IMG/VR virus record: IMGVR_UViG_3300046011_002895
Coordinates: 1-37,750 of that record
Source: a virus
DNA length: 37,750 nucleotides
Reading direction: 5' to 3' (one strand)
The position numbers and the translations under genes are program-made. Each line of letters opens with the position of its first letter. Position 1 is the stretch's first letter. Positions 2,436 to 25,300 of this stretch are shown in pieces. The notes under the pieces were generated by a model. It had not been told where the DNA came from, searched no databases, and saw only the letters and a list, made by a program, of their open reading frames with translations.

Positions 2436-2548
2436 ACCGATTTTTACTACCAACGTTATCGCCGCTAGCCTCTCATCCTCGGTTCCGCCCTCATTAGTAG
2501 CTGATGTTTAACGTGCCAGCAGGGTCGCGTTCCCTATCACACGTACTA

Positions 2549-2582: not shown

Positions 2583-2612
2583 CCTTTGGAGTTTAAGTGT
2601 ATTTGTGTACTC

Positions 2613-2744: not shown

Positions 2745-2753
2745 CTTGTACCT

Positions 2754-2782
2754 ATTGTAGTTTATTTATTCTTTTTTGTCAA
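2754..2782 (-). promoter_or_regulatory. Sigma70-type promoter for the tRNA operon
   Basis: On the minus strand TTGACA (2777-2782), exactly 17 nt, TACAAT (2754-2759). The -35 box overlaps the stop codon of the upstream oxygenase gene. It faces the 43-codon ORF and the tRNA array, and fits early transcription by unmodified host RNA polymerase. Confidence 0.82.
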
Positions 2783-3507: not shown

Positions 3508-3994
3508 TGGATTTTGCAATATGTTCAATTACCCATTTCCATATAGGCAATGAAAACTTTAATATCCACTCACCATTTAGTCGTATGTCAGTTTGATTGT
3601 ACATTACTTTATCTATTGTAAATCCTTTTGATGCCATGTCAGCTACCCAACTGTCAGACTGAAAATGTGTGAACGTTGAATTAGCAAAATAAAGTGCAGT
3701 TTCGAGCTTAATATCGTCTATTTCTACTTCTCTGATTTTAATATAATGATCGATGAAATTGCCATCAATTAATCGTAAATCATTATCAGTTTTATCCAAC
3801 TGTACTAATTTGAGTATATTAATATCTTCTTTAAATTCTGTTCTGTAATGTATAATTTCTTTTTTTGTAAATTCTGTGCGGTCAATTACATCTATTCTGT
3901 CAGCTGACAATAGGGTGTCATTTAAGAACACTTGAAATACAGGTTCTCTAACTCCAAAAAAACTTTCTATGTAAAGTTTTAAACTTGTAGTCAT
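3500..3994 (-). CDS. Conserved-looking hypothetical protein, beta-rich, possibly carbohydrate-binding
   Basis: A 164-aa protein beginning MTTSLKLYIESFFGV. I do not recognise a defined family. It is rich in alternating hydrophobic residues typical of beta sandwiches (FQVFLNDTLLSADRIDV, HYIKIREVEIDDIKL) and ends in an amphipathic segment (GEWILKFSLPIWKWVIEHI). This layout resembles carbohydrate-binding-like modules in aquatic T4-like phages, but that is a weak impression. It is transcribed between a small unknown gene and the oxygenase, with which it overlaps by 8 nt. Confidence 0.6.
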   Translation of the reverse strand: MTTSLKLYIESFFGVREPVFQVFLNDTLLSADRIDVIDRTEFTKKEIIHYRTEFKEDINILKLVQLDKTDNDLRLIDGNFIDHYIKIREVEIDDIKLETALYFANSTFTHFQSDSWVADMASKGFTIDKVMYNQTDIRLNGEWILKFSLPIWKWVIEHIAKSND

Positions 3995-3997
3995 TGA

Positions 3998-4201
3998 TTA
4001 ATAAGGTCTAGTCAAGTTTGCCCAAGTTAACCATTCTTTGAATGCGTGGTAAACACGTTGCGCTTCACGTTCATCCTGGTCAACTTTGACTCCGCGCACC
4101 CAAAACCCATTGCCGTCAATTCTAAGCATTTCTGTTTGATTAGAATGTAAAACAATGTTGCCTTGTGCTACAGTAGAGTCATCAATTGCCAACTTATCCA
4201 T
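3998..4201 (-). CDS. Small hypothetical protein (67 aa)
   Basis: Starts at ATG 4201 (MDKLAIDDSTVAQ); the longer open frame to 4261 runs into the tRNA gene and is rejected. It contains EMLRIDGNGFWVRGVKVD followed by an amphipathic helix (REAQRVYHAFKEWL), a pattern seen in small uncharacterised phage proteins. It is first in a compact group with the 164-aa protein and the oxygenase, and would be co-transcribed with the upstream tRNA from the promoter at 4314-4341. Confidence 0.65.
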   Translation of the reverse strand: MDKLAIDDSTVAQGNIVLHSNQTEMLRIDGNGFWVRGVKVDQDEREAQRVYHAFKEWLTWANLTRPY

Positions 4202-4227
4202 TCGAATACCACGAATTAATATAATTT

Positions 4228-4304
<77 letters not shown>

Positions 4305-4342: not shown

Positions 4343-5953
4343 CTATCTACGTTCTCTAGATTTAGATGCAACGGGTTCCTGTTTTGTGGGCCCTTTTCTA
4401 GCTTTTAGTCCTTGCACTGAATGCGTCGGTGCTGGTGTATCTATACCCGGCACGGGTTTTGCAGGTTGACTGTATTGATCTTTAGGTTTGCCTGCGTTAA
4501 AACTAAAACTAATTTTACGGCTGGGTTTAGTTCTTGCTGTATAACTATCAGCATCTACTTCGATTCGGCCGTTGAACACTGGTGGCCAGACAACTTTAAA
4601 TTGGCTATAATGCAACCCGCCTTCTTTGTCTGTTTTTGTTTTAGCATAAACTTGAACCAAACTACTTTTGTTCAATACTTGTTTAAAAAAGTCAGTGATT
4701 TTTTCACTGTCTTCATTTAACATACCAGCTACATACTTTGCACAGATTGCTAATAAATGAAATCCTAATTGATATTCTGGATGAGTAGCATCTGGTTGAT
4801 AGGGTATAGTTTCCTTGAGCATTTCCCACCGAGGTGGCAATTGATCTACATGTTTAATATCTTTATTGTAGATACTCATTAAAAAATCTACATCAGAAGG
4901 ATCAAGAATTCCATACTCCTGTGCTAACACTAAAGGCCCTTCAATGGCGCTATTCGTATCTAATATTTCAACTGCATCGATTTCATTTTTGAATTTAGTT
5001 TTAAAATTACTACCAAAATCAGTGTTTTCTAAAGTTTCTGCAATTGTCGCTGTGCTAGGTCTACCGCCGCCCGAACTGTCTTTAACACTAATATCAACTT
5101 TTTCATCTCCAAACCAAATTGTAGCATCAATAAGTTTTTCTGCTTTAGCGGGGAAACTTGCTGCGGTTGCTTGCTGCCAAGTATATCCCATGGGCTTTAA
5201 CAATTGTTCATTCACCATATTGTAATCACCAGTTACAAAATTGCCGCTTTGTAACGCTATAGGTGCTGCTAATTCACTTAGTTTAATTTCAATAGCACTT
5301 TGAAATTCTGCTAGGCCAGGAACCCCAGTAGTATTTCCCAGTTGAACATTCTTAATCAGTTCGGGTAATCCTTTTTTTAACTCTATAGGCATATTACTTT
5401 GAGATAAACCTGCACTTACATTTTGAACTAGTTGTCTAATACTATATTTGGTCCCTTCCTCAACAAAATCTGTAGGCTCAATCGGAATAGCTGCTTTTTT
5501 CATTTGTGCAGTTTGAGCCCACAGTCCAGTTTCTTTAGCAAAATTTGTAGTTTGCCAATAGATACCATTTGGTCCCAAACTTTTTTTGGCTATAAATTTT
5601 TTGGCAAATACATATACGTCGCCTTTACTATTTTTCATAATACAAACCATAGCAGCTCGGCCATAACTAACCCCAAACACATTGACCTGTAATGGATTTA
5701 CTTGTTCTACTATGTCTTGTATTGCAGTATCTAAAGCTGCAGTTCCTTTTTGTTGCGGAGTGTCTTCATATTTGTATTCGGGATCTGGAGGCACAATTTG
5801 AACATCTGTTAATGTATACTCTTCTTTTGTGTTTGCATCAACAAACGGAATGTCTTTTCCGCCTTGAATTTCTATCCATCTACGTGCTATTCCGCCTGTG
5901 CTTTCCTCAAGATCGATAGCTTCAATTAGGTCAATATATTTTCTTAAATCCAT
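4343..5953 (-). CDS. Large hypothetical protein with capsid-targeting-like N-terminus
   Basis: 536 aa from ATG 5953 (MDLRKYIDLIEA); an upstream TTG would add four residues. Known function: none recognised. The N-terminus resembles the short peptide that sends T4 internal proteins into the prohead, with a candidate protease site after LIE (residue 11). The body contains a predicted alpha/beta part (VNVFGVSYGRAAMVCIMKN, about 90-110), a motif DISVKDSSGGGRPS near 285-300, and a Pro/Lys-rich disordered C-terminus ending SKSRERR. The DxxxK spacing of DISVK invites comparison with PD-(D/E)xK nucleases, but the middle acidic residue is missing, so I do not claim it. A late-promoter-like box lies 28 nt upstream, fitting a virion protein. 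Confidence 0.65.
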   Translation of the reverse strand: MDLRKYIDLIEAIDLEESTGGIARRWIEIQGGKDIPFVDANTKEEYTLTDVQIVPPDPEYKYEDTPQQKGTAALDTAIQDIVEQVNPLQVNVFGVSYGRAAMVCIMKNSKGDVYVFAKKFIAKKSLGPNGIYWQTTNFAKETGLWAQTAQMKKAAIPIEPTDFVEEGTKYSIRQLVQNVSAGLSQSNMPIELKKGLPELIKNVQLGNTTGVPGLAEFQSAIEIKLSELAAPIALQSGNFVTGDYNMVNEQLLKPMGYTWQQATAASFPAKAEKLIDATIWFGDEKVDISVKDSSGGGRPSTATIAETLENTDFGSNFKTKFKNEIDAVEILDTNSAIEGPLVLAQEYGILDPSDVDFLMSIYNKDIKHVDQLPPRWEMLKETIPYQPDATHPEYQLGFHLLAICAKYVAGMLNEDSEKITDFFKQVLNKSSLVQVYAKTKTDKEGGLHYSQFKVVWPPVFNGRIEVDADSYTARTKPSRKISFSFNAGKPKDQYSQPAKPVPGIDTPAPTHSVQGLKARKGPTKQEPVASKSRERR

Positions 5954-10877: not shown

Positions 10878-13800
10878 TTATTTTTTTGACTTGTTGCCCC
10901 AATTTTTGGCGCCCATGTTGCGGCATCTTTCCATCGCTCCACTGGCATACGCACTTGGAATAACTTTATATCTTGCTTTTACTTTATAATAGCAAGCATC
11001 CTTTTTTTCAGCCAAAGCAGAGCTACTGTATGCTGGTCCGCCGCATTCTGGGCAACTTATTCGACCTTCCGTCAAACCATGCTTTTCGGCAATGTCATTA
11101 AGATCGACTCCACGCTCACTTGCAAATTCAGTAAAATCAGCGTCAATGTCAAATTCATATGCATTGTATAGTGCAGTAAAACCTTTGGCCATGTCTTGTT
11201 GGAATGCTTTATATATTTCTGCAATAGTTTCCCGATCTTCTGGTTCTTCTCTAGTTTTAATAAACTCTTTCAACAGAGATAAAATTATCTTTGTTTCATT
11301 GCTGATTTTTTTTGTCTGTACGGTCTGTGTTTTATTAAATGCTTGATAGATATCTTGTTTGACATTGAATCCCTGGTCCATGAGTTGTTCTGCTACATGA
11401 TCTCTAACAAAGGTATCCATGGCATAAAATGCTTTGATACCTGCTGCCATTCCTGATGATATAAATGTTTGACCAACTTTGATGATCTTGGCAGCATCAG
11501 CCCCGTCGCCTTCATCGTTATACATCTCAACATAATCTTGGCCGATTTCGATGATAGCATTGCCGTAGTCTAGAGGTCCATTTCCACCCTGGCCGTCACC
11601 AGTAGCAAATTCATTTAATGAATCTTCCGCCACACCTTGCTGGACTTGCGCCACTTCAACTTTACCTGCTTGTACTTCACGCTCGTAGCCATGATTGCGA
11701 GCCCAACTTAATCCGGTTTTCATAGCCGCCTCTTTATTACTGACCCCACCAAACTTTATCATTGGCTCACCGTTGATCATTACTTGCCATTCAATGTTGC
11801 GCGGTGAATCGGGTTTATATTTTTCTGGATCGTAAGGTTTATGGGGTGGCACTTTTTGACCTGAACCTACATTATGTGATCCACCTGCTCTTGAGATTTG
11901 CTGTTTAGCTTGCCATACTTCGTGCCATAGTATGTCAACTAATTTACTACCTAACTCTTCTTCTGCCCACTCTAGCATACTTTCTCTAAATTCTGTATCG
12001 TAACTAAAGACTGTATCTGCAAGATCAAACCAATTTGGAGAATTATTACTGCGTAGTTTATCATACGCTTCTCTAACATCAGAAAGATCTTGCTTCCAAT
12101 TTATTTCTTCTGGTTCTTCTTCGTCATAGTCAGTATCTTGAGCAGTTCCTAATGATATCATTACACCAGATAAAAACTTCTTTACTGCTGATACTGTTTT
12201 AGGAGGAGCAGGCTTGAAGAATTTTGCATAAGTTTGCTTCATCAAATCACTGTAATAATTTTCCGCCAAACCTTGCTGACCCTGGCTTATTCTGTGCAGA
12301 GTATTCAATTCATCCACTAGTGCCTGCCCGGCCTTTTTGATATCTCCTGTATGTTTCATTACAGTGTATGCAGTTTCGATAGCCGCCATCATTTGTTCTT
12401 CAGAAGGTTGCCATCCTTTTTTCGGATCTAAAACTCTTTTAAATAACTGCATTAAACCGGGCAATGTTTTTATTAGATGTGCTCTATATTCTTCTGCTGC
12501 TTGATCATGCTGGCCTTCGTTCATTCTTCCTGATAATCTATTCAGTGCACGATCTAGTCCTCGTTCTCTTTTTCGATCAACTGGGGTATCGAAAGGGGCC
12601 TTATTATACTGATCACCTGCACGGCCCGATTTAAAACTGTCACTGGTAGATCGAAGTAGTTGATCTTGAACATTAGCTTTAATATACTTTTTTAATAGTT
12701 CTTTACTTACTTCGTTTATAGATTCTTTTTTTGTTTTAACATTAATTGCTGCGCCTGTTCGTTCTGCATTAGGATCTTCTCTGCGCTTTCTCCGAGCTGC
12801 ACTGGCACGGCCTTTCTTGCCTAGTGCATGTGCTTTAGCTTGTGGTAAACATTTTGGCTTGCCTTCACTGCTATCACCTCGAGCACAGTCACCGCGAATT
12901 TTTCCGTCAGGTCCAAATCGCACCCATTTTTCTTTAAACCATTTGCGCAGATTTTCAGTTAATTCTTGCTGTCTTTTTTTTTGCTCCATTACCCCCTTAC
13001 CGCCGGGTAATTCTCTATCAAACGTAGTGCTACCATAAACTCCATAGCCATAATCGTAAACTCCCATCTTTGGGAATTTCATTTTAGGAAATTTTAGGCT
13101 GATCCAGTCTTTAGCACGTTCTATTTCGTCTTTGCTTTCAAAGTAGTAAACACCATCTTCAAATTTAAACTCAAAACCTTTTTCATTTAAAAGTCCAGCA
13201 AGATTTTGATTTTCATTGTCATCTACTATGTTCTCTGCACTGTCACGCTCAACATTTTGTAAACTGTTAGCAAAAGGACTTTTAACATTTATATCTGCAG
13301 AATCTTCTTCTATATCTTCTGCATCCATTGCTTGTTTTTTATTGTCCTTATCTGTGGGATTTTCCTCAAACTCTCTTACTATATCATTCGCCCAAGATTC
13401 GAATTCCTGTTCTGTGGCCATTTTACGACGATGATACTCTCTAAATACAACTGGCAAAGCATTAGTAATTCTATCATCGAATACTTTTCTTACAAACCGT
13501 TCTCTCAATTCAGTCAGATCAAATTCAGTTTCTTCCAACACTTCTGGTTGCCATAATTCTCGATATTGATCGTAACCGCGCTGACTGCGAATTAGATGTA
13601 AATCACTATGCAATCTGCCGTAATGATCTATGGCACTTTCTACCATTTGCTGAGTTTCAATGTCTTCAAATGTTCTACCGCGCATGTTGCGAACAAACAT
13701 GCGAAGGTCGGCCATCTCTTTAATCATTCGTCCTATATGCTGGGAAAAGTCGTCGTGCAGTTGTCCGCCATTTTTTACATGTCTTGCGTAAGCTCTTGCA

Positions 13801-14396
13801 CCGTTAATAGTAGTGCCTTCGGGAAGTTTAAATCTTTCACCTTGGGAATTCTCGATGTAGAACGATTCAACATTTCGACTTCTTGCACCAGGAATAGTTT
13901 CGTCTACTATGGGTTTACTATGGCGTGCAATGATACGCACATCTTCTAATTGTTGATAACTGCTGCGACGTGTGCCATACAATTTAGATTCATTAACATT
14001 GACTTCATCTTTGGAATACACTTCTGAATCTTTATTCAGGTATTTTAAATCACGTAAATTTAATCCACTTTTTCCAATATCTCTAACATCAAATACTGCA
14101 CCTTCCGCCATTGCAAAAAATCGTAATTCTTTTAAAAACTTGAACCACTGCTTTTTTTCAATTGGTGTCATGAACTGGTCTAAGTCTTGAGCATAGAAAA
14201 CTTTTAAATCCTTACCCAATACACTGATAGTAATAGAACCAAAGTTTTTACCGTTAGCAGCATAATCAAAGCTAAAAAATCTTGCTTTAGCAGGATCCAG
14301 TGTGCTTTCACGTTTTTCATCACGTATAGCAACCGGACTAAAACGATTGCGTAACTTGTCAAATAATCCAGATGCAGTTTGGTCAATATTTCTCAT
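10878..14396 (-). CDS. 1172-aa mosaic protein, candidate internal-head polyprotein A
   Basis: A very large, probably virion-internal protein built from unlike pieces. Residues about 150-325: HSKP/GARSRN-containing helical domain (EDVRIIARHSKP, GARAYARHVKNGGQ). About 490-555: basic Cys-containing cassette (RGDCARGD, GKPKCLPQAKA, GRASAARRKRR). About 562-623: cassette VSKELLKKYIKANV to RERGLDRALNRLSG. About 868-912: WQVMINGEPMIKFGG. C-terminus: CPECGG, then the basic module DACYYKVKARYKVIPSAYAS and MGAKNWGNKSKK. Pieces are separated by (I/L)xE sequences: SINE562, GLAE712, SLNE929, GLTE1110, ALAE1130, plus GVAE924. These fit the T4 prohead protease consensus. It lies right after gp17; ATG 14396 has no ribosome site and follows a CATAAATA box by 7 nt. 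Confidence 0.8.
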   Translation of the reverse strand: MRNIDQTASGLFDKLRNRFSPVAIRDEKRESTLDPAKARFFSFDYAANGKNFGSITISVLGKDLKVFYAQDLDQFMTPIEKKQWFKFLKELRFFAMAEGAVFDVRDIGKSGLNLRDLKYLNKDSEVYSKDEVNVNESKLYGTRRSSYQQLEDVRIIARHSKPIVDETIPGARSRNVESFYIENSQGERFKLPEGTTINGARAYARHVKNGGQLHDDFSQHIGRMIKEMADLRMFVRNMRGRTFEDIETQQMVESAIDHYGRLHSDLHLIRSQRGYDQYRELWQPEVLEETEFDLTELRERFVRKVFDDRITNALPVVFREYHRRKMATEQEFESWANDIVREFEENPTDKDNKKQAMDAEDIEEDSADINVKSPFANSLQNVERDSAENIVDDNENQNLAGLLNEKGFEFKFEDGVYYFESKDEIERAKDWISLKFPKMKFPKMGVYDYGYGVYGSTTFDRELPGGKGVMEQKKRQQELTENLRKWFKEKWVRFGPDGKIRGDCARGDSSEGKPKCLPQAKAHALGKKGRASAARRKRREDPNAERTGAAINVKTKKESINEVSKELLKKYIKANVQDQLLRSTSDSFKSGRAGDQYNKAPFDTPVDRKRERGLDRALNRLSGRMNEGQHDQAAEEYRAHLIKTLPGLMQLFKRVLDPKKGWQPSEEQMMAAIETAYTVMKHTGDIKKAGQALVDELNTLHRISQGQQGLAENYYSDLMKQTYAKFFKPAPPKTVSAVKKFLSGVMISLGTAQDTDYDEEEPEEINWKQDLSDVREAYDKLRSNNSPNWFDLADTVFSYDTEFRESMLEWAEEELGSKLVDILWHEVWQAKQQISRAGGSHNVGSGQKVPPHKPYDPEKYKPDSPRNIEWQVMINGEPMIKFGGVSNKEAAMKTGLSWARNHGYEREVQAGKVEVAQVQQGVAEDSLNEFATGDGQGGNGPLDYGNAIIEIGQDYVEMYNDEGDGADAAKIIKVGQTFISSGMAAGIKAFYAMDTFVRDHVAEQLMDQGFNVKQDIYQAFNKTQTVQTKKISNETKIILSLLKEFIKTREEPEDRETIAEIYKAFQQDMAKGFTALYNAYEFDIDADFTEFASERGVDLNDIAEKHGLTEGRISCPECGGPAYSSSALAEKKDACYYKVKARYKVIPSAYASGAMERCRNMGAKNWGNKSKK

Positions 14397-14427: not shown

Positions 14428-15993
14428 TTACATCATAATAAAAGGCATGGGCATGATGATTTCATCCGACGAATCTTTTAATTTTTCGTCTAAATTACTG
14501 TCATATTCTCTAAGAAATATTGCCATTCTAACTACTAATAACATAGCCATTACTAGGTCATCAGTCTCTCCCAGCTTGGCCGCATAGCTGTTATTAGATG
14601 CTACAAAAGTTTTTAATTCACTAACTAATGATTTACTGGCAATATGTAATTTTTTAGTTTCGACTAAATTTTTAAACTTCGCACACGCTGCCAGTTTAGA
14701 TTTATTTGTTGTGTTAAATCCTTTTCTATAGGCCCTTGCCTGCCCTGCCCGTTTGGGTTCACTTAAAAAAATACCTTTAAAGTTTTCTTCTCCAAATTCC
14801 GAAATAGTAATTAATGCTGCTTCACCAATTGTGTTATTTTCTACACTAAAATATACATCTGTAATGGTATCTATTTCTTCTGAAATATATTTTGTTATTT
14901 CACTTAAAATTTTTACTTGTTGTTGTATAGGCGTGCGATTATGCTGCCATTCCGCTACTTGGTGCATACTTGGCAGTTCGAGAACCTGTATTGCCGCAGG
15001 ATCCCCGCCTGTTCCTAAACTAGGATCTAATCCTACTAGATATATATTGCCTTTTTTGGGTTGTTTGTACCATCTTACCTGTCCTTGTTTTTGTATAGGA
15101 TCTATGCCAGCAAGTTCCGTTAACATAATAGGATTAATCAGCGTCTCATCATAGATAATGAATTCACAATCCATTTCACGACGGAAGCGTTCTTCACCTA
15201 ATTGCGCACGTTGTTCTGCTTCCCACTTTTCGTCTCTATCCGGATGTTCTTTCCAATAACTACGAAATGGTTTAAATCCATTAATGCCTAATTCTGTTTC
15301 ATTGCCATATTCATCTATACGTTTATTGGCTTGCCGCCAAATTTGTGCAAACTGATCTTCATCACTGTTCGGGGTGCTTGTAATAATACATTTACCACCA
15401 GTGGCCAAAGTTGGGCTAATAGAAGTCCAAAATTCCTTTGCTATTGTAGGTCTTACGAAAGCAAACTCATCACAATAAAGCAACGAAATACTCATACCCC
15501 GTCCCGTATTTTCAGTAGTTGTAGCACTGACTATTCTAGATCCATTATCAAAATCTATACTGCCTTTGTTATAACTTGTTACACCTGCCCGGATAAAATT
15601 TGGAACACTTTCGTATCCGTATCTAATACGCTGCATAATTTCCTGACTGCCTGTATATTTGTGTGCAGCCACTAAAATTGTGCTGTCCGGAACAAACATA
15701 GCATACCAAAGTAAATATCCTGCAGCAGTTGTGCTCTTGCCAGTTTGCCTGGGCATTAAACTTATACTGTATCTATAATTATGATAAGTTTCTACTAAAC
15801 GTTCTTGATATTCAAAAGGCTCATATTGCATCCTACCTCTAGTAGGATGTTGAATATAAAAATAGTTTGAGAGAAAATGGGCAGGCCCAGAAACAGGATC
15901 TGCACATTTAATAACCTCACGTAGTTGACTTTCTGTAAAAGTCTCTTTAGTATTTGGTTTTTTGATTAAAACGGTTTCAGACAAAGGTTTCAT
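14428..15993 (-). CDS. gp17: Large terminase subunit gp17 (packaging ATPase-nuclease)
   Basis: 521 aa (T4 gp17 is 610). It pumps DNA into the prohead and cuts the concatemer. ATPase domain: PFEYQERLVE, Walker A MPRQTGKS (80-87), Walker B LLYCDEFAF (171-179) with catalytic Glu176, coupling motif ITSTPNS (204-210). RNase H-like nuclease domain: GLDPSLGTGGD (321-331), acidic VENN (384-387) and TDDLVMA (477-483) give the catalytic Asp/Glu/Asp set. It is shorter than T4 gp17 mainly at the N-terminus and ends in a Met-rich tail (MPMPFIMM). No ribosome site is seen at ATG 15993; a TAAATA box lies 18 nt upstream. The small subunit gp16 lies 6 kb upstream rather than adjacent. Confidence 0.96.
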   Translation of the reverse strand: MKPLSETVLIKKPNTKETFTESQLREVIKCADPVSGPAHFLSNYFYIQHPTRGRMQYEPFEYQERLVETYHNYRYSISLMPRQTGKSTTAAGYLLWYAMFVPDSTILVAAHKYTGSQEIMQRIRYGYESVPNFIRAGVTSYNKGSIDFDNGSRIVSATTTENTGRGMSISLLYCDEFAFVRPTIAKEFWTSISPTLATGGKCIITSTPNSDEDQFAQIWRQANKRIDEYGNETELGINGFKPFRSYWKEHPDRDEKWEAEQRAQLGEERFRREMDCEFIIYDETLINPIMLTELAGIDPIQKQGQVRWYKQPKKGNIYLVGLDPSLGTGGDPAAIQVLELPSMHQVAEWQHNRTPIQQQVKILSEITKYISEEIDTITDVYFSVENNTIGEAALITISEFGEENFKGIFLSEPKRAGQARAYRKGFNTTNKSKLAACAKFKNLVETKKLHIASKSLVSELKTFVASNNSYAAKLGETDDLVMAMLLVVRMAIFLREYDSNLDEKLKDSSDEIIMPMPFIMM

Positions 15994-16110: not shown

Positions 16111-16638
16111 ATGTCGGACGTTCTACTATTAAATTCGGATTTTAATCCAATTAGTGTACTTCCATTGAGTGTAATCTCATGGAAACATGCAATTAATTTA
16201 TATTTCATGGATAGAATTACAATCATCGAGGAATATGAAGATTGGGTAATCAGAAGTGAAAAATTGGCTATAAAAGTTCCCAGCGTTTGTATGACTAAAC
16301 AGTATCTAAATTTTAAAAAGACACCAAAATTCAGCAGATCCAATATGTACTTAAGAGATCTATATCAGTGTCAATACTGTGGTGAAATATTTACTGCTAA
16401 AGATTTGACATTAGACCATGTTATTCCAAGAAGTAAAGGCGGCAAAACAACTTGGGAAAACAGTGTGTCTGCATGTAAATCTTGCAATCATAAAAAAGGC
16501 GCAAGAACAGATATGTATCCAATGCGTAAACCTTTTAAGCCAGATCATTTTCATTTAATAAACAAATGGAAACAACGGCCTATCCAAGTCCGCCACAAAA
16601 GCTGGTATACATATTTGGGAATTGAGCCACCAAATTAA
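16111..16638 (+). CDS. HNH endonuclease
   Basis: 175 aa with a complete HNH zinc-coordinated nuclease core: CQYC (87-90), LDHVIPRSKGGK (101-112) with the catalytic His, Asn117, and CKSCNHKKG (122-130). Such enzymes nick or cut DNA; in T4-like phages stand-alone HNH genes are often mobile homing endonucleases. The N-terminal 80 residues (VLLLNSDFNPISVLPL) match the N-terminus common in bacterial HNH proteins of this type. It is on the opposite strand to all neighbours, has its own sigma70-like promoter, and overlaps the next minus-strand gene by 4 nt at its 3' end. This argues for insertion between gp17 and the internal-protein genes. A packaging role is the alternative. Confidence 0.9.
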   Translation: MSDVLLLNSDFNPISVLPLSVISWKHAINLYFMDRITIIEEYEDWVIRSEKLAIKVPSVCMTKQYLNFKKTPKFSRSNMYLRDLYQCQYCGEIFTAKDLTLDHVIPRSKGGKTTWENSVSACKSCNHKKGARTDMYPMRKPFKPDHFHLINKWKQRPIQVRHKSWYTYLGIEPPN

Positions 16639-16844
16639 ATTGGTTTTTCGTTTGTAAGATAAGGCTTACTGAACCAAAGTTTAAACCAGGCCTCGGTGCC
16701 TGGTTTTATATTATGTTCTCGCATTAATTTTGCTGTTTCTGTTCCTGTAACACTAATATTGCTACCGGGATAACCTTTATATTCAGTCCATTTTGGTCGA
16801 TTGTTGATACCTGACAGGAATTTAAGTTGTTCTATATCGTCCAT
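16635..16844 (-). CDS. Small hypothetical protein (69 aa)
   Basis: MDDIEQLKFLSGINNRPKW then a second part with NIKPGTEAWFKLWFSKPYL. The latter Trp/Phe-rich motif (GTExWFxLWFSKPYLT) recurs in small proteins of T4-like aquatic phages, function unknown. Its ATG overlaps the stop of the upstream 125-aa gene (TAATG), so it closes the internal-protein cluster that starts at 21594. Confidence 0.7.
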   Translation of the reverse strand: MDDIEQLKFLSGINNRPKWTEYKGYPGSNISVTGTETAKLMREHNIKPGTEAWFKLWFSKPYLTNEKPI

Positions 16845-17221
16845 TATATACCAAATTTATTTTTTTTAGGTTTTGCCACAGGACTAACTTTATATGTAGA
16901 TTCAAGTTCCTGACTTTTAAGATCGCCGTTGTTTAGGTCTTTGTGCCAACTGCCTACAGCTTTGAATGCTTGCTGAAGCATCTTTTGCTCCTCGGCAGTA
17001 TAGGGTGCAGCAATATCATGTCTACCAGCCCAACTTTCGTGATCTATGTTTAAAGGGTTCTCTCCATCTGCCATAGCTGCAGCCATCATTACACGATTTA
17101 ATTCGTAAATCCTATCTGCAAATTCTGCATCACGAAAAAGATTAAGACCTACAGTAGATTGCTGCAGTCTTTTAGCGATCTTTGCAGGACTACCTTCAAC
17201 AATAACTTCTTTGATTTTCAT
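16844..17221 (-). CDS. Hypothetical protein with capsid-targeting-like N-terminus (125 aa)
   Basis: Begins MKIKEVIVEGSPAK: a short amphipathic peptide ending in IVE, a candidate prohead-protease site before Gly10. The body has a helical segment (LFRDAEFADRIYELNRVMMA), SWAGRHDIAAPYT, and a Lys-rich end (KPKKNKFGI). No enzymatic motif is seen. It follows the upstream gene directly (TAA-ATG) and overlaps the next by TAATG. I infer an internal head or head-associated protein. Confidence 0.65.
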   Translation of the reverse strand: MKIKEVIVEGSPAKIAKRLQQSTVGLNLFRDAEFADRIYELNRVMMAAAMADGENPLNIDHESWAGRHDIAAPYTAEEQKMLQQAFKAVGSWHKDLNNGDLKSQELESTYKVSPVAKPKKNKFGI

Positions 17222-17899
17222 TTACCAAGCTCTACAAGACCAATAACGTGCTTTCCAGCGTGGGCCAGGGTTATCACAATTATGTCTTGCTCTAAATGAT
17301 TTACGACGTTTAGGGTTAGACTTTTTAATCTTCATCTTCTTGTCGCCAAAATTTACCTTGACAACATTTCCTTTAGGACCACGGACGTAAACTTTTGATT
17401 TTTTAACATCACCTGCCATTGGTTTACCTAATTGAACCTTGCGACCTTGATATTCTGCTTCCATTACGTCATCTTGACCGTATTCGTCTACTAATTGTTT
17501 ATGAATGATGTCAATAATCTGTTCAAAGTCATCGTCAGGGTGTAAGCCATAATCGATCACAATATCATCATACATTTCCTGCAATTTTTCAGAAACGTAG
17601 TTTTCAATTTTGTCTTGAGGCTGTGTCATTACTTGATAAATGTCCTTAGTGCCATTTACTAAATCTTGAAACAGCATATTAACTTCTTTCATTGCGCCCT
17701 CAACAACCATTTGTCCTTTGGATTCAAATGTGGCACCTGCCATTTTTAAAAGTGCTAAAGTTTTTAAATCAGCTTCAAGCAGAACACCATCTTGTAATAT
17801 ATCTACAACCCCAGTGTGAATTACAGTTTCGCCTAGTTCAATATCAAAACTATCACCTAACGCGATAGTTTCGTTTACGATAATGTCTGCTATTCTCAT
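17222..17899 (-). CDS. Candidate internal head protein with conserved basic C-terminal module (225 aa)
   Basis: N-terminus MRIADIIVNETIALG resembles a targeting peptide (candidate cut after VNE). Residues about 15-150 are acidic with a motif VVDILQDGVLLEADL. The C-terminal 75 residues form a sharply different basic module: YQGRKVQLGKPMAGDVKKSK, VYVRGPKGNVVKVNFGDKK, then RRKSFRARHNCDNPGPRWKA and RYWSCRAW. This last module, with two Cys and many Arg/Lys, is one I have met at the C-termini of several uncharacterised T4-like phage proteins and probably binds DNA or protein (inference). Adjacent genes abut with TAA-ATG junctions. Confidence 0.7.
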   Translation of the reverse strand: MRIADIIVNETIALGDSFDIELGETVIHTGVVDILQDGVLLEADLKTLALLKMAGATFESKGQMVVEGAMKEVNMLFQDLVNGTKDIYQVMTQPQDKIENYVSEKLQEMYDDIVIDYGLHPDDDFEQIIDIIHKQLVDEYGQDDVMEAEYQGRKVQLGKPMAGDVKKSKVYVRGPKGNVVKVNFGDKKMKIKKSNPKRRKSFRARHNCDNPGPRWKARYWSCRAW

Positions 17900-20800
17900 T
17901 TAACGTACCTTTATACTTTCGTACTCTTTCATTAATGATAAAGAAATACTTTCAGCTACATCTTTCACTGCCAATGGATTATCACTGAATCTTGCACTGC
18001 CATGCTTGTTCATTTTTTTGGTTTTTCCAGCAACTTCGCCGTCGCCCCCTTGTAGTTGTGTTTCTAAAGGAATTACTTCTTCCTCAGGTGTAGTGCTGGC
18101 ATGATATCGATCATCTTTGGCTTCTTCCATTGGAACTACAGTAACTTCAGCTTCTGGCATTGAACCGGACTGTCCTTTCATACCTGCTAAAGAAAGAAGC
18201 TGCATTAACTCTAATGCTGCATCACCATCTGCAGTTACAGTAACACTTTTAGTACCATCTGTGCTCATGTTAGTTGTAACGTTCATGCGACCTTCTTGAT
18301 CTGTCATGCCGTTTGCCATAGGGCCCATGTCCCCACATTCATCAAGTTTGCTTTCTTTTACTGGATATGTTTTACCATCAACTTCGAACTCTTTGGCGCC
18401 AGATGCCTTGGCTTTGGCTAAAGCTCCAGAAAATTCGTTGCCTTCGTCCATGTCATCTTCTTTAAAATGACTTTCATTTTGTGTTTTCATATCGGAAGTC
18501 GGAGCAGGTTGACTTGGCGCTGAATTTGCCTTTTCTCTGTCTGCCATTACCTGTGCTTGGGTTTTTTCACCTGATAAAATTTGCACTATTTCTGCAGATG
18601 TCAAATGAGGTTTCCGTGGAGCAGGCTGACTCTCTTTAACCTTTTTGCCACCTGCTCGTAAATCTGCCAGATCATCAGCTTCAATATCGCCATCTTTATC
18701 AACATCTAACTTATGTTGTTTTCCATGCAACTTGCCTTCCATGCCAGCAAGACGCATCATTTCTGACAACTCATCTTCTTCCATATTACATTTAGATGCG
18801 GGAGTGAAAGGTGGACATTTAGGTTTGATTTCGTTGTCTCTGTTTCCAGTCTGAGGTTGTGGTTGAGTACTTGGTTGCGTACTTGGTTGAGTACTTGGTT
18901 GACTTTGTTGAGAACTTTGGTTCATTCTTTCTATTTGGTCTGGAGTAAGTTTAAGTGTTCTATCTTCCACAGAGCCGTCCGGCATAATGATCATTTTTTC
19001 GTCTAACTTTTCGTCTGTACCAGCAAGACGCATCATTTCTGATATATCATCTTCTCGCATATCACTATCTAAAGTAGCAGGATTAACTTTATTTCCAACT
19101 AATCCAGGAATATCAACACCTCGATCAGAAAGTCGTTGTGCTGCCATGCTAGGACCAAGACCTCTTTCTTTACTGTAGACGTTACTGTCCCCTGGTTTCA
19201 TATACATACTATTTTTTACTCTATCCACATCTGTCTGAAACTGTGTGTTGTTTGGCTGACTTTCAGCAACTTCTTTGTCAGTATCGACTTCCGAACGTTT
19301 GTCTGGTCCTTGCTGTGGCTTGGGCGCAGGACTTGGTGTAGATTTAGCTGGTGCAGGTTTTAGATGTGGATTTAATTTATAATCTATATCCGGAACTAAT
19401 TCACCTGTTTTAGGGTCACGCTTATAAGTAGGCTCCATTGGAGCAGGTAAACGACTGTCAGTTTGACGTTCAACTAACTGTAAAAAAGCTTCAGCAATCA
19501 TCCGATTGTTTTCTGCAATCCAACTTTCCTTCATTTTATTTTTACTGCCGGCAGGTCTACCACGACCACGTTTTTCACCAGTAGACGTAGCTTTCTTTTC
19601 ACCGGCACGTACTACACGATTTTTTACGCCTTTTGGGCGGCCTCTGCCACGCTTTTCTCCTTCGGGTTTAGCAATCTTTTTCTTAGTTTGACCATCGTCA
19701 TCTTCGTCATCGTCGCCTTGATATTCTGTACCGTAATGGCCTTTATGTATTACACGATCAGTGGCACCTTGTTTTGGCACATCTTTCATTAGGTCACGCC
19801 AGTAATCTGCGTCGCTTTCTAAAATTACATTTAAACTTTCTAAGATTTCTTCTTTTGTATAGCCATTCTGGAATGCTCGATGAATTGCTTCGCTAACGTG
19901 CTGAGGTAAACCTTTGTGCTTAGTTGCTGCAAAATCACGGGCTGCTTTTTTGCTCATGCCTTTTGCTGCCTTAGCAACTTCCGGACTTGCAGGTTTACCA
20001 CCTTTTTTTGCAGCATGTACCATACCCATGAATTTCTGTTGGGCACGACTTACTGCTTTTTCATCTAATTGTTCTTCGTCCATTTTGTCGTGCTTGGCAC
20101 GTATCATTGCCATTTTTTCTTTGCTAGCCCCTTCGCGGCCTGCTTTCTGAAGAGCTTTCATACCTTGCTCACCATATTTCTTCTTACCTAAATAGGCTTG
20201 CAATCCAGATTCTTCTACTTCGCCTTCCGCTATAACTTTGTGACCTTCCTCTTTTTTCTTTCTTAGAAATCGTTTGAATTCATATTTGTCCTGAGTTTTA
20301 AAAACTACACGGCCATTGTATATGACCTTGAATGTATTAACTGGATCGCCGTATTTGTTGTCAGGAGATTTCTCACTGGAAGTCTTAGCCCAATACGTAT
20401 CCTTGGGAGATTTATCACGAGATTCAGAATCTCGTGTTGAGCCTTCTGCTATATCTTTTTTGCCATAAATTTCATCATACATGTATGGGTCATGCTTTTC
20501 TAAGAATCGCTCTACGGCTTCATCCCATGTTTTTATTCCATCAAACTCCCCAACTATTACACCATTAATTAATTTCTTATACATGTTGTTCCACTCGGGC
20601 CCGTAATGATCACGGACTTGTGCTGGAATCCTTTCCCAAATTGCATCCGCAAATTGTATATCATTTAATTGACCTGTGGATTCTGTTACTTTCTGCTCAC
20701 CAAGTTTCTTACCAGCAGCAGCGGCTTTTTGGAACTTTTCTTTTCCATACTTCTTACGACCTATGCTGGCAGCAACGGCTTCTGGATTTTCTGCGCTACC

Positions 20801-20971
20801 ACCTTTCTTAATAGCAGCCACAGTCTTCTTAAAGCCCATGTACTTTTCATTTACCTGCTCAATACTTTCTTGTAATTGAGTCTTAGGTTTAGCAGCCTGC
20901 TGAGTAGGCTCGGGCTTTTGCTCGATTAATTTATTAAAATTGTTTAGGATTTTGTAAATGTCGTTGCTCAT
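17900..20971 (-). CDS. 1023-aa mosaic protein, candidate internal-head polyprotein B
   Basis: N-terminus MSNDIYKILNNFNKLIEQ has a candidate protease site (LIE17). Cassettes in order: GRKKYG piece (about 40-92); acidic alpha/beta piece (100-175); KVIYNGRVVFKTQDKYEFKR (215-234); second KKYG piece (255-290); DUF3008-like piece (305-358, QQKFMGMVHAAKKGG and DFAATKHKGLP); two AT-hooks (RGRGRP near 441 and 468); Pro-rich linker; SEMMRLAG copies (644 and 736) around a STQP repeat; EF-hand loop DVDKDGDIEADD (756-767); EFEVDGKTYPVKESKL (861-876); beta-rich DGTKSVTVTADGDAAL (905-920). (I/L)xE junctions include DIAE176, VIAE249, QLDE304, ILE385, WIAE487, MIAE494. Extremely Lys/Glu-rich and probably largely disordered. 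Inference: DNA-associated capsid-internal cargo. Confidence 0.8.
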   Translation of the reverse strand: MSNDIYKILNNFNKLIEQKPEPTQQAAKPKTQLQESIEQVNEKYMGFKKTVAAIKKGGSAENPEAVAASIGRKKYGKEKFQKAAAAGKKLGEQKVTESTGQLNDIQFADAIWERIPAQVRDHYGPEWNNMYKKLINGVIVGEFDGIKTWDEAVERFLEKHDPYMYDEIYGKKDIAEGSTRDSESRDKSPKDTYWAKTSSEKSPDNKYGDPVNTFKVIYNGRVVFKTQDKYEFKRFLRKKKEEGHKVIAEGEVEESGLQAYLGKKKYGEQGMKALQKAGREGASKEKMAMIRAKHDKMDEEQLDEKAVSRAQQKFMGMVHAAKKGGKPASPEVAKAAKGMSKKAARDFAATKHKGLPQHVSEAIHRAFQNGYTKEEILESLNVILESDADYWRDLMKDVPKQGATDRVIHKGHYGTEYQGDDDEDDDGQTKKKIAKPEGEKRGRGRPKGVKNRVVRAGEKKATSTGEKRGRGRPAGSKNKMKESWIAENNRMIAEAFLQLVERQTDSRLPAPMEPTYKRDPKTGELVPDIDYKLNPHLKPAPAKSTPSPAPKPQQGPDKRSEVDTDKEVAESQPNNTQFQTDVDRVKNSMYMKPGDSNVYSKERGLGPSMAAQRLSDRGVDIPGLVGNKVNPATLDSDMREDDISEMMRLAGTDEKLDEKMIIMPDGSVEDRTLKLTPDQIERMNQSSQQSQPSTQPSTQPSTQPQPQTGNRDNEIKPKCPPFTPASKCNMEEDELSEMMRLAGMEGKLHGKQHKLDVDKDGDIEADDLADLRAGGKKVKESQPAPRKPHLTSAEIVQILSGEKTQAQVMADREKANSAPSQPAPTSDMKTQNESHFKEDDMDEGNEFSGALAKAKASGAKEFEVDGKTYPVKESKLDECGDMGPMANGMTDQEGRMNVTTNMSTDGTKSVTVTADGDAALELMQLLSLAGMKGQSGSMPEAEVTVVPMEEAKDDRYHASTTPEEEVIPLETQLQGGDGEVAGKTKKMNKHGSARFSDNPLAVKDVAESISLSLMKEYESIKVR
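18861..18900 (-). repeat. In-frame 12-bp tandem repeat encoding STQP repeats
   Basis: Three tandem copies of GGTTGAGTACTT (one with C for A) encode Ser-Thr-Gln-Pro repeats inside the 1023-aa protein. This is likely an unstable linker that can vary in length by slippage. Confidence 0.85.
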
Positions 20972-20973
20972 AA

Positions 20974-21594
20974 TTATTTTCTTCCACGGCCTACTGGCGG
21001 TAATTTAGGTTTGTGTCCACCTAAGGGACTTGTTTTTCCAACTGGTAAATCGTTTGTAGTTTTTGCTTGCGGAGTTGAGCCACCTTCAGGAGCTTCATAT
21101 TGGTACTTGCGTGTTTCTTCTAATTCTTTAATTAAATTAGGAATCCTTGCATCACCGACCAAAGCTTCTCCACCAGGACCTGGTCTTTCGCGTTCCATAT
21201 TATCTTGCAATAACACAGATTCACCAGCTTTGCCACCGATATTACTTTGCTCTAAGCCATCCCTTGTTGCTTCAAACGGACTATTTTTTGGAGTAACTTT
21301 AATACATGCTAAATTAATTCCCGCACGCTCTGCCATTAAAGTTCTTACTTGTTCGTCATTGCATGGGTAGTGAAAAGTAGCATCCATCAAGTGCACTTCA
21401 ACTGGGCCTAAACTAGGAAAATCTGGACTTTCTTGAATAGGTAATCTTTTTGGTTTTGTTATAGAATCCAATTTGTATGCTTCTAAAACTGTTTTGATTT
21501 TAGACATTAGATCATCAGGCAGCTCACAGGCTAGTCTAATCCTAAAATCAAACGTTTTATGACTTTCAGTTAGATAAGCTTTAAACGATTTCAT
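20974..21594 (-). CDS. Candidate internal head protein with T4-type targeting peptide (206 aa)
   Basis: N-terminus MKSFKAYLTES closely parallels the T4 internal-protein targeting peptide (MKTYQEFIAE followed by A), with a predicted cut after LTE10. An alpha/beta domain follows (TFDFRIRLACELPDDLMSKI, VEVHLMDATFHYPCNDEQV, AGINLACIKVTPKNSP), then a disordered Gly/Pro/Lys-rich tail ending PPVGRGRK. The fold looks like a small ferredoxin-like domain, but I name no family. It has a good ribosome site (AGGAATTAAA) and a late-promoter-like box (21614-21621), making it the head of the internal-protein operon. Confidence 0.72.
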   Translation of the reverse strand: MKSFKAYLTESHKTFDFRIRLACELPDDLMSKIKTVLEAYKLDSITKPKRLPIQESPDFPSLGPVEVHLMDATFHYPCNDEQVRTLMAERAGINLACIKVTPKNSPFEATRDGLEQSNIGGKAGESVLLQDNMERERPGPGGEALVGDARIPNLIKELEETRKYQYEAPEGGSTPQAKTTNDLPVGKTSPLGGHKPKLPPVGRGRK

Positions 21595-21634: not shown

Positions 21635-22126
21635 TTATTGCTTTGGCTTATTTAATATTTGAGCCAACAATGTATTTCTATCAACTACCATACCCTCGCC
21701 TTCAATAGAACTATCCACTTGTCCACCATCTTGTTTAATTTGATGATCCAACCTCATTTTCTTTAATTGAAGATCAACCATGCGTAGTTTTTTGTCTAAC
21801 TTAGCTTGTTTGGCAGTGATAGCATGACCCAATAGTACCCCTGCAGTTTGGAAAACTTGACCACTAAATCTTGCTTCCATATTCATGCCAAGATCCATTA
21901 AATCATTAAATCTATCTTTAGCTAAAGTAGCTAATTCATCCATTTCCTGATCACTGGCATCTAATTCCCGAACCATAGGTAATGCAGCATCTATCTTATC
22001 AATGGTGCTGTCAATATCCCTAAATATTGTTTCGTTTTCTTTAAAAGTTTCTACTGCTTCGAGTGCTGTAGTCTCTTCCGGTAAATTTTTTGGTAAATTA
22101 AAAAGTTCTTCGAGTTTACGTGTCAT
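21635..22126 (-). CDS. gp16: Small terminase subunit gp16-like
   Basis: 163 aa from ATG 22126 (MTRKLEELFNLPKNLP), matching T4 gp16 in length (164). The longer open frame upstream lies inside the gp4 gene and is rejected. The sequence is almost wholly alpha-helical, with STIDKIDAALPMVRELDASD, EMDELATLAKDRFNDLMDLG and LLGHAITAKQAKLDKKLRMV followed by a helix rich in Lys/Leu, the coiled-coil oligomerisation pattern of T4-like small terminases. It recognises DNA for packaging and regulates gp17. It is 12 nt from gp4 and upstream of the internal-protein operon. The call rests on recalled similarity to gp16 of aquatic T4-like phages. Confidence 0.75.
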   Translation of the reverse strand: MTRKLEELFNLPKNLPEETTALEAVETFKENETIFRDIDSTIDKIDAALPMVRELDASDQEMDELATLAKDRFNDLMDLGMNMEARFSGQVFQTAGVLLGHAITAKQAKLDKKLRMVDLQLKKMRLDHQIKQDGGQVDSSIEGEGMVVDRNTLLAQILNKPKQ

Positions 22127-22131
22127 AGTAA

Positions 22132-22143
22132 CGGTATTTACCG
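22132..22143 (-). promoter_or_regulatory. Palindromic TAAATA box before gp16
   Basis: CGGTAAATACCG is a perfect 12-bp palindrome spanning the gp4 stop codon and ends 6 nt before the gp16 ATG. The embedded GGTAAATA resembles the late-promoter core. No ribosome site lies between it and the ATG. Confidence 0.4.
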
Positions 22144-22575
22144 TTTTTTGGTTCCTTGATGGAAAATGTCTGTTTCGTTTACGACTCTGAATCGTAAACC
22201 TTGTGCAGCACAAAACTTCTGTGCAGCTTGCCATTTTGCCATATTTAGAACTACTGCAGCTTTATCCCTTGCAGACTTTGCCGATTCAAATACAGTTTGA
22301 TTAGTTGGTTTAATTTCTATTAATTCTCCGTGTTGCTTACCATTTTTATCTTGATATACAATTAAAAAATCAGGAACATATATAGTGTTTTTTCCTGTAA
22401 ATGGATTTTTGTAATTGACATGAATAGCTTCACTAGCCCAGTGCAATACTGCTGGATTCCGATCACAAAAATTCATAAATGCAAATTCCCAACTTGATCT
22501 ATATGTAGGCTCCTTACGACCTACATATTTTGCAGGATTCACTATCTCATATTTTCCTTGGCTATATTTAGACAT
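22138..22575 (-). CDS. gp4: Head completion nuclease gp4-like
   Basis: 145 aa (T4 gp4 about 150). The sequence shows the TnsA-like/PD-(D/E)xK nuclease layout expected for T4 gp4: YRSSWEFAFMNFCDRNPAVL (about 25-44), WASEAIHVNYKNPF, the catalytic core YVPDFLIVYQ with Asp and GELIEIKPTNQT with Glu-x-Lys, and a final strand FRVVNETDIF. Gp4 finishes the filled head, trimming or sealing the packaged end before the neck attaches. It fits its place just upstream of the terminase small subunit. Confidence 0.88.
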   Translation of the reverse strand: MSKYSQGKYEIVNPAKYVGRKEPTYRSSWEFAFMNFCDRNPAVLHWASEAIHVNYKNPFTGKNTIYVPDFLIVYQDKNGKQHGELIEIKPTNQTVFESAKSARDKAAVVLNMAKWQAAQKFCAAQGLRFRVVNETDIFHQGTKKR

Positions 22576-22577
22576 GA

Positions 22578-22946
22578 TTAATATAAAATAGTTCGAGTTA
22601 CATATTTGTTTTCTTGAGGAGCCGTCTTGACTCCTAAATAACTGGTGTTGACTCTTGAATTATTTAAATACAGTGCTAAGATTACACTTAAATCGCCTTG
22701 CGGTAATTTCATAAATTTATTTAAAACTTGTAAAGGATCTTCTCTTTGAAGTTGTGCAGTTTCGATTACTGTTTGTACTAATATTTTGGCACTGTCTTTA
22801 TTTCCAGTCTGTTGTTCAAAATACCCTAAAATTGAATCATTAACTTCTTGGCTGATTTCTAACGGCGCTAAAAAATAATTATTAAAATATGCTGTAGTTT
22901 TTGTAAACCCGGAAGTATTAAGATTAGTAGGAGAATTCAATATCAT
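22578..22946 (-). CDS. Hypothetical structural-cluster protein (122 aa)
   Basis: MILNSPTNLNTSGFTKTTAY, then mainly helical with GYFEQQTGNKDSAKILVQTV and QREDPLQVLNKFMKLPQGDL, ending YLNNSRVNTSYLGVKTAP. A protein with a YLNNSRVxTSxLGV ending is familiar from structural regions of aquatic T4-like phages; function not known to me. It overlaps the stop of the 784-aa tail protein by TAATG and lies 2 nt before gp4. It may be a small baseplate or tail-assembly factor (inference). Confidence 0.65.
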   Translation of the reverse strand: MILNSPTNLNTSGFTKTTAYFNNYFLAPLEISQEVNDSILGYFEQQTGNKDSAKILVQTVIETAQLQREDPLQVLNKFMKLPQGDLSVILALYLNNSRVNTSYLGVKTAPQENKYVTRTILY

Positions 22947-25300
22947 TATTCACTGCCCCATTCATTCCATTCAGACCAACTGTCATTTGATGGACCTTCG
23001 TTGACCCAATCAGCTGGGTTACCCATTGGATCTTCAGTGGGGCCACTGTAGTTCCATTCATCCCCACTACCAGTATAAATCGGATTACCGCTTCCATCGG
23101 TTAATAAACTACCGGCCCCCGGACCTGAAGCCACGGAGTCTGTATTTTGACCGGGAGATTTATTAAAGAAATTTAAGAATCCTGAATTGTTTGAGCCTTT
23201 AACTGTTGCAACGATCTCACCGTTTGCATTTTCAGTGACTTGTGTGCCATCTTTATACGTAGTCACAGCAAATACTTCACCAGTAATAGGATCAGTATCT
23301 TCAATGGTACCGACAACATTTTTCCAAGGTTCTGAGGCAGAGTAGCCACCTGTACCAGTCCAGCTACCTACAACATTTTTAACTTCTCCTGCAACTTTAT
23401 CCCAACCTTGAACAATGGCTCCAGTTGCAGTGTTTATAATTGGTTGTAATCCATTATTGACTGCACGACCTATTGCTGCTCCTGTTGCAGTTGACACTGC
23501 GGCGCTGACTGTTCTGCCAATTACACTGTCCCCCAAGAAACTTCGATTTAGAGCTCTATTGATCGATTGCCCGGCTACTAATCCACCAACTGCCCCTGCG
23601 GTGCCCGACAAAGTATTTGTAATCTGTGCTGTGGTTGTACCACCAACAGTATAAACCAATCCCGTCTTAGGATCAGTTCTATATTGCACACCGGTTTGAC
23701 TCAATGTGGCACCAGTTGCAGCTAATGTTCTAGTGTCTACTGGATTTGTGTTGATATTATTTGCGTTTTGTACTTTTCCAGGAAAGACTCCCAGTCTGTT
23801 ACCTTCTGCATCTTCTGTAACTTGCGTACCGTCTTTGTATGTATTAATTACTACAGTATTGCCTTCTTCATCTGCAGTGGTTTGAACTGACACTAAATTT
23901 TCTGTTGGATTCTTAGGATTGTATGTACCGGACTTAGTACCTAATGTTGTAAATCCTGGCACTGCTTGACCATTATCGTCGATAAACACACCTGTAATTG
24001 TTCCAGTGGGTGTGTTAAGAGTACTAGGATCGACAACTACCCTGCCTGATGTTTGTTGTGCATCAAAGATTGACCCAGTTCTAACAAAATTAGCTCCTGC
24101 ACCTATAGCAGTTTGCAATCCTCTGTTAACTGCTGCTAATCCTTGCGTTAATACATTAGGACCTGAATTTATACCAGCTCCGGCTGCAGCACCTATTACC
24201 AAACTACCACCATTTACTCCTGTCACTGCAGGTATTCCTCTATTTCCTACAGGTGCTGGATTAGAAAATAATTGACTTGTTGTAGTACTAGCAGTGGTTG
24301 GGAATGCAAAAGGATTACGGCCATTTAGCACTTGATTTGCAACACCTAATCCTAATTGCCCTAAACTTGCTCCTACTGCATTTTTGAAGTTTACACCTTT
24401 TAAATTGTTATAGGTTTTGTATAAAGTAAGCAAATTACTTAATGGACCACCTGCTCCATTTGCGCCGTCTGGTTTTCGTAAATCTTTTGCTACACCATCT
24501 ATTACTCCAAGAATTCCACTGTTAGAGTATAAGTTAGATGTGCTAGTTGCAAGTGGACTTGGTCTGTTGTCGTAATGTAATAAAGTAAATCCGTCAACTG
24601 CAACAGGATCAACATATCCAGTAAAATATTTCACTGTTTCATAATTAACTTGCATTGTGTTTGTTAGCAGTCCTGTCCCTTCACTGCTGTCTACTTCACC
24701 ATGTCGCCAAGAAGTTATTACAGGGTTTACTAACATGTATTCAGTGAATCGTTTATTGTGCAAACTAAAAATTCTTATATTACTCAATAAAGGAGGCAAG
24801 GATTGATTTCTTGGACTAAATCCCCAACCAATTTTAGATCTTAAAGAGTAACGATTTGTATGCCTATAAGAAACTGCATCATAATCACTGTCTCTAAAGT
24901 AATATGTATAATAATCATTCCAAAAATTAGTTATTACATCTGCTGCATCATCATGAAATGCGATGCTAACCGGTTCATAACTTAATTGTGTATGTAGAAT
25001 ATTTTTCCTATTGTAGGCATTTAAAGTTTTTGTGTTAATTTGAAATTTAGGCAAATCTGCACGTTTGACCAACATTCCTGTTTCGAAGAATTGATATCTT
25101 TCAGCAAAACTCACAATATTTGCCAATATACCCTGTGCCTGTGTTAGTGCTGGATCAAAATTAATCACCACATAATACAAAAATGATTGCTTTGGGGTCA
25201 AACGAAAATTGTCTGCTAAAAACAATTTTGTAGCATGTTGATACGGTTGAGTGGGGTTAGAACCTAATGGTTTTAATCCAGCATTATATAAAGCGGCCAT
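22946..25300 (-). CDS. Tail/baseplate structural protein, 784 aa
   Basis: The N-terminal 240 residues look like a tail-tube/baseplate-hub-type domain: FRLTPKQSFLYYVVINFDP, LVKRADLPKFQINTKTLNAY, LSYEPVSIAFHDDAADV, then YMLVNPVITSWRHGEVDSSE. The remaining part is low-complexity and Gly/Ala/Thr-rich, with small hydrophobic stretches (SLVIGAAAGAGI, AVGGLVAGQSI) and a duplicated motif TYKDGTQVTE(D/N)A(E/N)G (near residues 508-524 and about 685-700). It ends in a Trp/Ser/Glu-rich tail (SNDSWSEWNEWGSE). Downstream of the tail tube and separated from it by a terminator. A tube-initiator/baseplate role is inferred from the N-terminal resemblance. No ribosome site is evident at ATG 25300; a GCTAAATA box ends 5 nt before it. 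Confidence 0.65.
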   Translation of the reverse strand: MAALYNAGLKPLGSNPTQPYQHATKLFLADNFRLTPKQSFLYYVVINFDPALTQAQGILANIVSFAERYQFFETGMLVKRADLPKFQINTKTLNAYNRKNILHTQLSYEPVSIAFHDDAADVITNFWNDYYTYYFRDSDYDAVSYRHTNRYSLRSKIGWGFSPRNQSLPPLLSNIRIFSLHNKRFTEYMLVNPVITSWRHGEVDSSEGTGLLTNTMQVNYETVKYFTGYVDPVAVDGFTLLHYDNRPSPLATSTSNLYSNSGILGVIDGVAKDLRKPDGANGAGGPLSNLLTLYKTYNNLKGVNFKNAVGASLGQLGLGVANQVLNGRNPFAFPTTASTTTSQLFSNPAPVGNRGIPAVTGVNGGSLVIGAAAGAGINSGPNVLTQGLAAVNRGLQTAIGAGANFVRTGSIFDAQQTSGRVVVDPSTLNTPTGTITGVFIDDNGQAVPGFTTLGTKSGTYNPKNPTENLVSVQTTADEEGNTVVINTYKDGTQVTEDAEGNRLGVFPGKVQNANNINTNPVDTRTLAATGATLSQTGVQYRTDPKTGLVYTVGGTTTAQITNTLSGTAGAVGGLVAGQSINRALNRSFLGDSVIGRTVSAAVSTATGAAIGRAVNNGLQPIINTATGAIVQGWDKVAGEVKNVVGSWTGTGGYSASEPWKNVVGTIEDTDPITGEVFAVTTYKDGTQVTENANGEIVATVKGSNNSGFLNFFNKSPGQNTDSVASGPGAGSLLTDGSGNPIYTGSGDEWNYSGPTEDPMGNPADWVNEGPSNDSWSEWNEWGSE

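Follow-up and report, generated by a model that had tools for sequence, protein, structure and literature searches.

Conserved T4-type N-terminal peptides on head-module proteins of a jumbo-like T4-superfamily phage fragment

According to an earlier note, four adjacent genes of a viral DNA fragment begin with short amphipathic peptides that resemble the capsid-targeting peptide (CTS) of the T4 internal proteins. This raises the question of which of their products are addressed to the phage head, and whether they belong to the head itself or are carried there to act on the host after injection. The fragment, here referred to as the window, comprises the entire record IMGVR_UViG_3300046011_002895 (37,750 bp).

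Gene content and position of the cluster

The window is a fragment of a jumbo-like myovirus of the T4 superfamily. It encodes sheath, tube and head closure proteins, a small-terminase-like protein, the gene cluster in question and the large terminase (TerL), followed by p1172 and gp32-, uvsX- and uvsY-like genes. Among isolates, the best TerL identities were found in the PA5oct group (56%), Phosso (52%) and Atu_ph07 (50%). The block p206/p1023/p225/p125 is syntenic and lies between the head closure/small terminase genes and the large terminase gene. The gp21-gp23 region is located outside this 37.7-kb fragment, so the prohead protease is known from relatives only. Gene calls were made with a simple script of our own, and some may be spurious; the ORF list placed the four genes and their N-termini exactly where the earlier note had read them. 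Genome-wide tests used related genomes, among them a 338-kb record (G001, source of L018). The features are as follows (all on the minus strand).

20974..21594, minus: p206, putative CTS-tagged head protein (ORF, 45 homologs, AlphaFold model, PA5oct gp282)
21565..21594, minus: p206 tag MKSFKAYLTE, with Ser11 predicted to follow the cut (conservation in 45 homologs)
17900..20971, minus: p1023, predicted multi-cut core/internal protein of 1023 aa (site excess)
20696..20845, minus: KYG module of p1023, residues 43-92, net charge +9, between VNE and LGE/VTE
19889..20059, minus: DUF3008-like module of p1023, residues 305-361, net charge +10, between LDE and VSE
19016..19045, minus: p1023 RLAG motif 1, ISEMMRLAGT (motif search)
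18740..18769, minus: p1023 RLAG motif 2, LSEMMRLAGM (motif search)
18179..18208, minus: p1023 RLAG-like motif 3, LMQLLSLAGM (motif search)
17222..17899, minus: p225, putative CTS-tagged head protein with a conserved basic C-terminal domain (domain search, homologs)
17870..17899, minus: p225 tag MRIADIIVNE (18 homologs; two tag flavours in the family)
16844..17221, minus: p125, putative CTS-tagged protein, small and mostly helical (homologs)
17195..17221, minus: p125 tag MKIKEVIVE (32 homologs)
16635..16844, minus: p69, small protein with the N-terminal RLAG-like sequence IEQLKFLSGI at residues 4-13 (52 homologs)
4343..5953, minus: p536, a distant gene starting MDLRKYIDLIE|A, candidate only (few relatives)
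10878..14396, minus: p1172, protein of the head module encoded downstream of TerL (PA5oct gp278 is its homolog)
14428..15993, minus: large terminase (context)
21635..22234, minus: small-terminase-like ORF, belonging to a PHROG of unknown function (inferred from position and sequence)

The first ATG of the small-terminase-like ORF lies within its overlap with the upstream gene. Elsewhere in the window, a 784-aa protein (22946-25300) combines a tail-tube-like N-terminal part with a long extension, an HNH-like sequence is present in an opposite-strand gene between p69 and TerL (16111-16638, plus strand), and 17 tRNA genes are found at positions 1-4304.

N-terminal peptides of p206, p225 and p125

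IPIII of T4 needs no more than its first ten residues for targeting. Targeting depends mainly on residues 4 and 7 of the CTS and processing on residues 8 and 10, and the protease gp21 cuts after L/I-x-E (PMC9026906). The T4 IPIII tag reads MKTYQEFIAE|A. In the alignment of 45 p206 homologs, K2 (45/45), F4 (43/45), Y7 (42/45), [LIF]8 (45/45) and E10 (43/45) were conserved, the residue following the Glu was S11 in 31 of the 45, and positions 3, 5, 6 and 9 were variable. p206 thus displays the aromatic or hydrophobic residues 4 and 7, the I/L at 8 and the E10 of a T4-type CTS, and its tag fits the T4 determinants because F4/Y7 and 8/E10 are kept and the intervening positions are free. Two homologs lack the tag Glu, MKSFRDYYDA of PA5oct and MKNFYEYLSS of Phosso, and retain F4 and Y7; cleavage is therefore not universal in this family. 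The AlphaFold model of p206 consists of an N-terminal helix, a ferredoxin-like domain (residues 15-102) and a disordered tail; fold matches were ferredoxin-like (S6-like) and weak, and give no pointer to function. In Atu_ph07 (L123), the frame is open upstream of the annotated start of gp113 up to MKTLQDYLTESKKCYTY, a p206 tag, and the annotated start is probably too far downstream.

The tags of the two smaller families carry a conserved short hydrophobic peptide ending in [LIV]xE, whose register is one off that of T4. Glu9 is present in 30 of 32 p125 homologs, with hydrophobic residues at positions 6 and 7 in all aligned sequences, and in 17 of 18 p225 homologs; the window copy of p225 has its Glu at position 10, a shift of one residue. 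In the p225 family, a single mature domain is preceded by either a MKIRDVIVE-like or a MKTFKDYLTE-like tag, with about three changes of tag label on the family tree, which is small and weakly supported. The p225 slot of the 338-kb relative (L110:2801-4186) is occupied by an unrelated DUF6321 protein starting MKVNDVITE, that is, the same tag flavour on a different cargo. The mature parts of p206, p225 and p125 had no detectable mutual relatedness in sequence comparisons.

The earlier note had compared these peptides to the tags of the T4 internal proteins. For p206, p225 and p125 this likeness was borne out, since their homologs support the start sites and keep the peptides. Its fourth neighbour, p1023, did not hold up: the LIE at residues 15-17 is replaced by VAQE, LTE or NGLAP in relatives, which share a conserved M-S-x-x-I-Y-x-I-L start and a later LQES/VYES. 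p1023 is outside the set of proteins with an N-terminal tag. Whether p536 is CTS-tagged is uncertain. It is 536 aa long from the ATG at 5953 and 540 aa from an upstream TTG, and its homologs comprise two close copies and two distant relatives; of the latter, one has IIE (MRNLIDIIE) and the other LVS.

To count such N-termini genome-wide, we used a CTS-like regular expression with its core within residues 3-10 and E at 9 or 10, and took expected counts from internal positions of the proteins. Three of the 35 window proteins matched (0.15 expected, P 5e-4). Of the genomes not used to set the expression, G004 had 9 matches (1.3 expected, P 9e-6), G002 had 4 (0.7 expected, P 0.005) and P-SSM2 had 4 (0.8 expected, P 0.009); the values for G006 (4 vs 1.5, P 0.07) and G003 (1 vs 0.45) were individually weak, and PA5oct and Phosso were at background, with no overall enrichment. 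In the T4 control, 5 matches were found (0.8 expected, P 0.0016), and IPII, IPIII and gp24 were recovered. The P of the 338-kb relative itself (1.6e-6) is optimistic, because this genome and T4 had guided the choice of the pattern. In the 338-kb relative (L103, L106, L118), CTS-like or [LI]xE N-termini were also observed on amidoligase-like proteins, a cytidylyltransferase-deaminase, a DUF6267 protein and a LysM protein. A shared C-terminal "SPV" tail was discarded, as its excess was confined to Phosso and most genomes showed no clear one.

Predicted cut sites in p1023 and the RLAG[IL] peptide

The sequence [LIV]xE[SAG] occurs 13 times in p1023 compared to 3.0 in shuffled sequences, about a four-fold excess, and [LIV]xES 9 times compared to 0.9. 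Similar values were obtained for T4 gp22, a known multi-cut substrate (10 vs 2.4 and 6 vs 0.9, respectively), and TerL (1 vs 1.6) and sheath (1 vs 1.7) had no [LIV]xE[SAG] excess over shuffles. Because bare [LI]xE is also frequent in TerL, the counts require a small residue directly after the Glu. Several p1023 homologs showed a modest excess, and the counts could partly reflect linker composition. The DUF3008-like module, which scored just below the Pfam cut-off, has sites on both sides in seven of seven distinct homologs (background 0.43 and 0.20), although these are not seven independent events because the sequences are related. Many of the pieces predicted for the N-terminal part are basic (+9, +6, +10, +7), and those for the C-terminal part acidic; the basic ones may bind DNA. 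Judged by its sequence, p1023 is likely a multi-cut core or internal protein.

A second peptide links p1023 to the scaffold. The gp22-like scaffold proteins end in [KR][RK]LAG[LI] at 76 of 78 loci (L197-L276, by regular expression) and in FKRLAGLK at the remaining two, so that an RLAG peptide stands at the scaffold end in 78 of 78. A looser form turned up 65 times among 49 p1023 homologs, against 0.4 for shuffled sequences; 45 of 52 p69 homologs also carry it, as do 42 of 96 p1172 homologs. In the p1172 family it often sits at the C-terminus, and the window copy of p1172 lacks it. In G003, the whole-genome matches were exactly the scaffold, p1023, p69 and p1172; in the other genomes, the loose pattern also matches unrelated proteins, near chance level. 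The link between the scaffold end and these three proteins is new here. A scaffold-end peptide on other head-module proteins suggests a mechanism, open to test, by which large heads could recruit their contents. It is conceivable, though short of probable, that two address peptides build the prohead core, a CTS in two interchangeable flavours and a scaffold-type RLAG[IL] on p1023, p69 and p1172, possibly docking to the partner of the scaffold end (inner shell or core), and that p1023 is a polyprotein releasing several basic DNA-binding peptides within the head.

Virion evidence and probable fate of the tagged proteins

A gp21-type protease (Peptidase_S77) was present in 13 of 13 relatives and reference phages tested. 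LxE was found at the T4 gp23 cut position in 80 of 80 related capsid proteins, for example FLTE|A in T4 and HLAE|NAT in the 338-kb relative. According to the "ESI-MS/MS" notes in the GenBank record of PA5oct, gp282 (the p206 homolog), gp281, gp279 and gp278 (the p1172 homolog) are virion proteins. gp281 has no detectable homology to p1023 and is an analogue in position and motif only. The PA5oct p206 homolog, tagged without E10 and nevertheless virion-annotated, would fit targeting without processing. An analogously tagged protein, the T4-GC190 cytidyltransferase, begins with MKSFSQFLTE|T in P-SSM2 and MKKFSAFLNE|A in S-SM1, and was detected in S-SM1 virions (PMC3037559).

Tag conservation, protease, capsid LxE and virion detections together make head packaging well supported, and T4-type capsid targeting of p206, p225 and p125 is likewise well supported. 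From sequence, conservation, synteny, enrichment and the protease and capsid site of relatives, we infer that the proteins are targeted and cleaved, and what becomes of the pieces; the presence in virions of the p206 homolog and of the analogously tagged protein was reported by others. Head targeting followed by processing is the best reading for the three proteins, and we consider it probable. The cluster would then be a head-core module of this phage. The N-terminal helix of 9-10 residues would recruit p206, p225 and p125 to the prohead core, the gp21-type prohead protease would cut after the Glu of the tag ([LIV]xE|), and the mature proteins would remain alongside the DNA in the head. p1023 would be a substrate of another kind, long and modular, in which the same protease cuts many [LIV]xE sites, as in T4 gp22, and several of its pieces would be basic.

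A variant in which the proteins are targeted as transient core components, and are degraded or expelled at maturation instead of being retained, appears rather unlikely. The pieces of T4 gp22 and gp67 are mostly removed (PMC9026906), and p1023 is rich in cut sites; however, p206 and p125 contain few internal [LIV]xE[SAG] sites, and the PA5oct annotation lists gp282 and its neighbours among the proteins detected in virions. Still less likely is that the tagged proteins are injected effectors acting on the host by anti-restriction or takeover; the earlier note had proposed them as candidate host-takeover or anti-defence factors. T4 CTS proteins do include the injected IPI* and Alt (PMC3012670, PMC9026906), and the enzyme-like proteins of the 338-kb relative mentioned above carry similar N-termini. 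Against this, p206 and p125 recur in syntenic positions and are conserved throughout the clade, whereas T4 internal proteins are variable, the genes sit within the head/packaging module, and no defence, effector or enzymatic domain was found in the cluster proteins; searches of Pfam, PHROGs, NCBIfam, PADLOC and PDB sequences returned no host-takeover domain. The suggestion is therefore unsupported. Shared ancestry or a generic amphipathic Met-Lys start bias, with no targeting signal, is very improbable: the motif is short and its enrichment weak or absent in some genomes, but the mature parts show no detectable relatedness, fixed and free tag positions track the T4 mutational data, the flavours interchange on the p225 family, and the same expression recovers T4 IPII, IPIII and gp24.

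A short tag that can be read from sequence could serve to inventory the proteins inside the heads of uncultured T4-superfamily phages from genome data, so that many "hypothetical" genes would become candidate virion cargo open to test. No paper on the families discussed here was among the literature hits listed, which is weak evidence of novelty.

Compared to T4 IPI, IPII and IPIII, the tags share the N-terminal decapeptide with K2, aromatic residues at 4 and 7, I/L at 8, and E10 followed by a small residue at position 11, as well as the gp21-type protease (in relatives) and the occurrence of the tag on unrelated mature proteins. In contrast to the variable and accessory T4 genes, those of the window are conserved, syntenic and part of the head module. 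Further differences from the T4 CTS are the second flavour, MKIxxVIxE with E at 9, and the loss of the cleavage Glu in the PA5oct and Phosso p206 homologs. p1023 resembles the multi-cut core proteins gp22 (scaffold) and gp67 in its comparable [LIV]xE[SAG] excess. It is not a homolog of gp22, as the gp22-like gene adjoins the capsid gene in relatives, and differs by its modular build with basic DUF3008-like and KYG segments. The cyanophage T4-GC190 cytidyltransferase has a like tag, but bears an enzyme domain and lacks homology to the window proteins. In phiKZ and SPN3US, a prohead protease also removes N-terminal propeptides from ejection proteins (PMC10052503, PMC9026906); protease and head proteins of these phages are much more divergent (PMC9026906), whereas the peptides of the window are of the short T4 kind.
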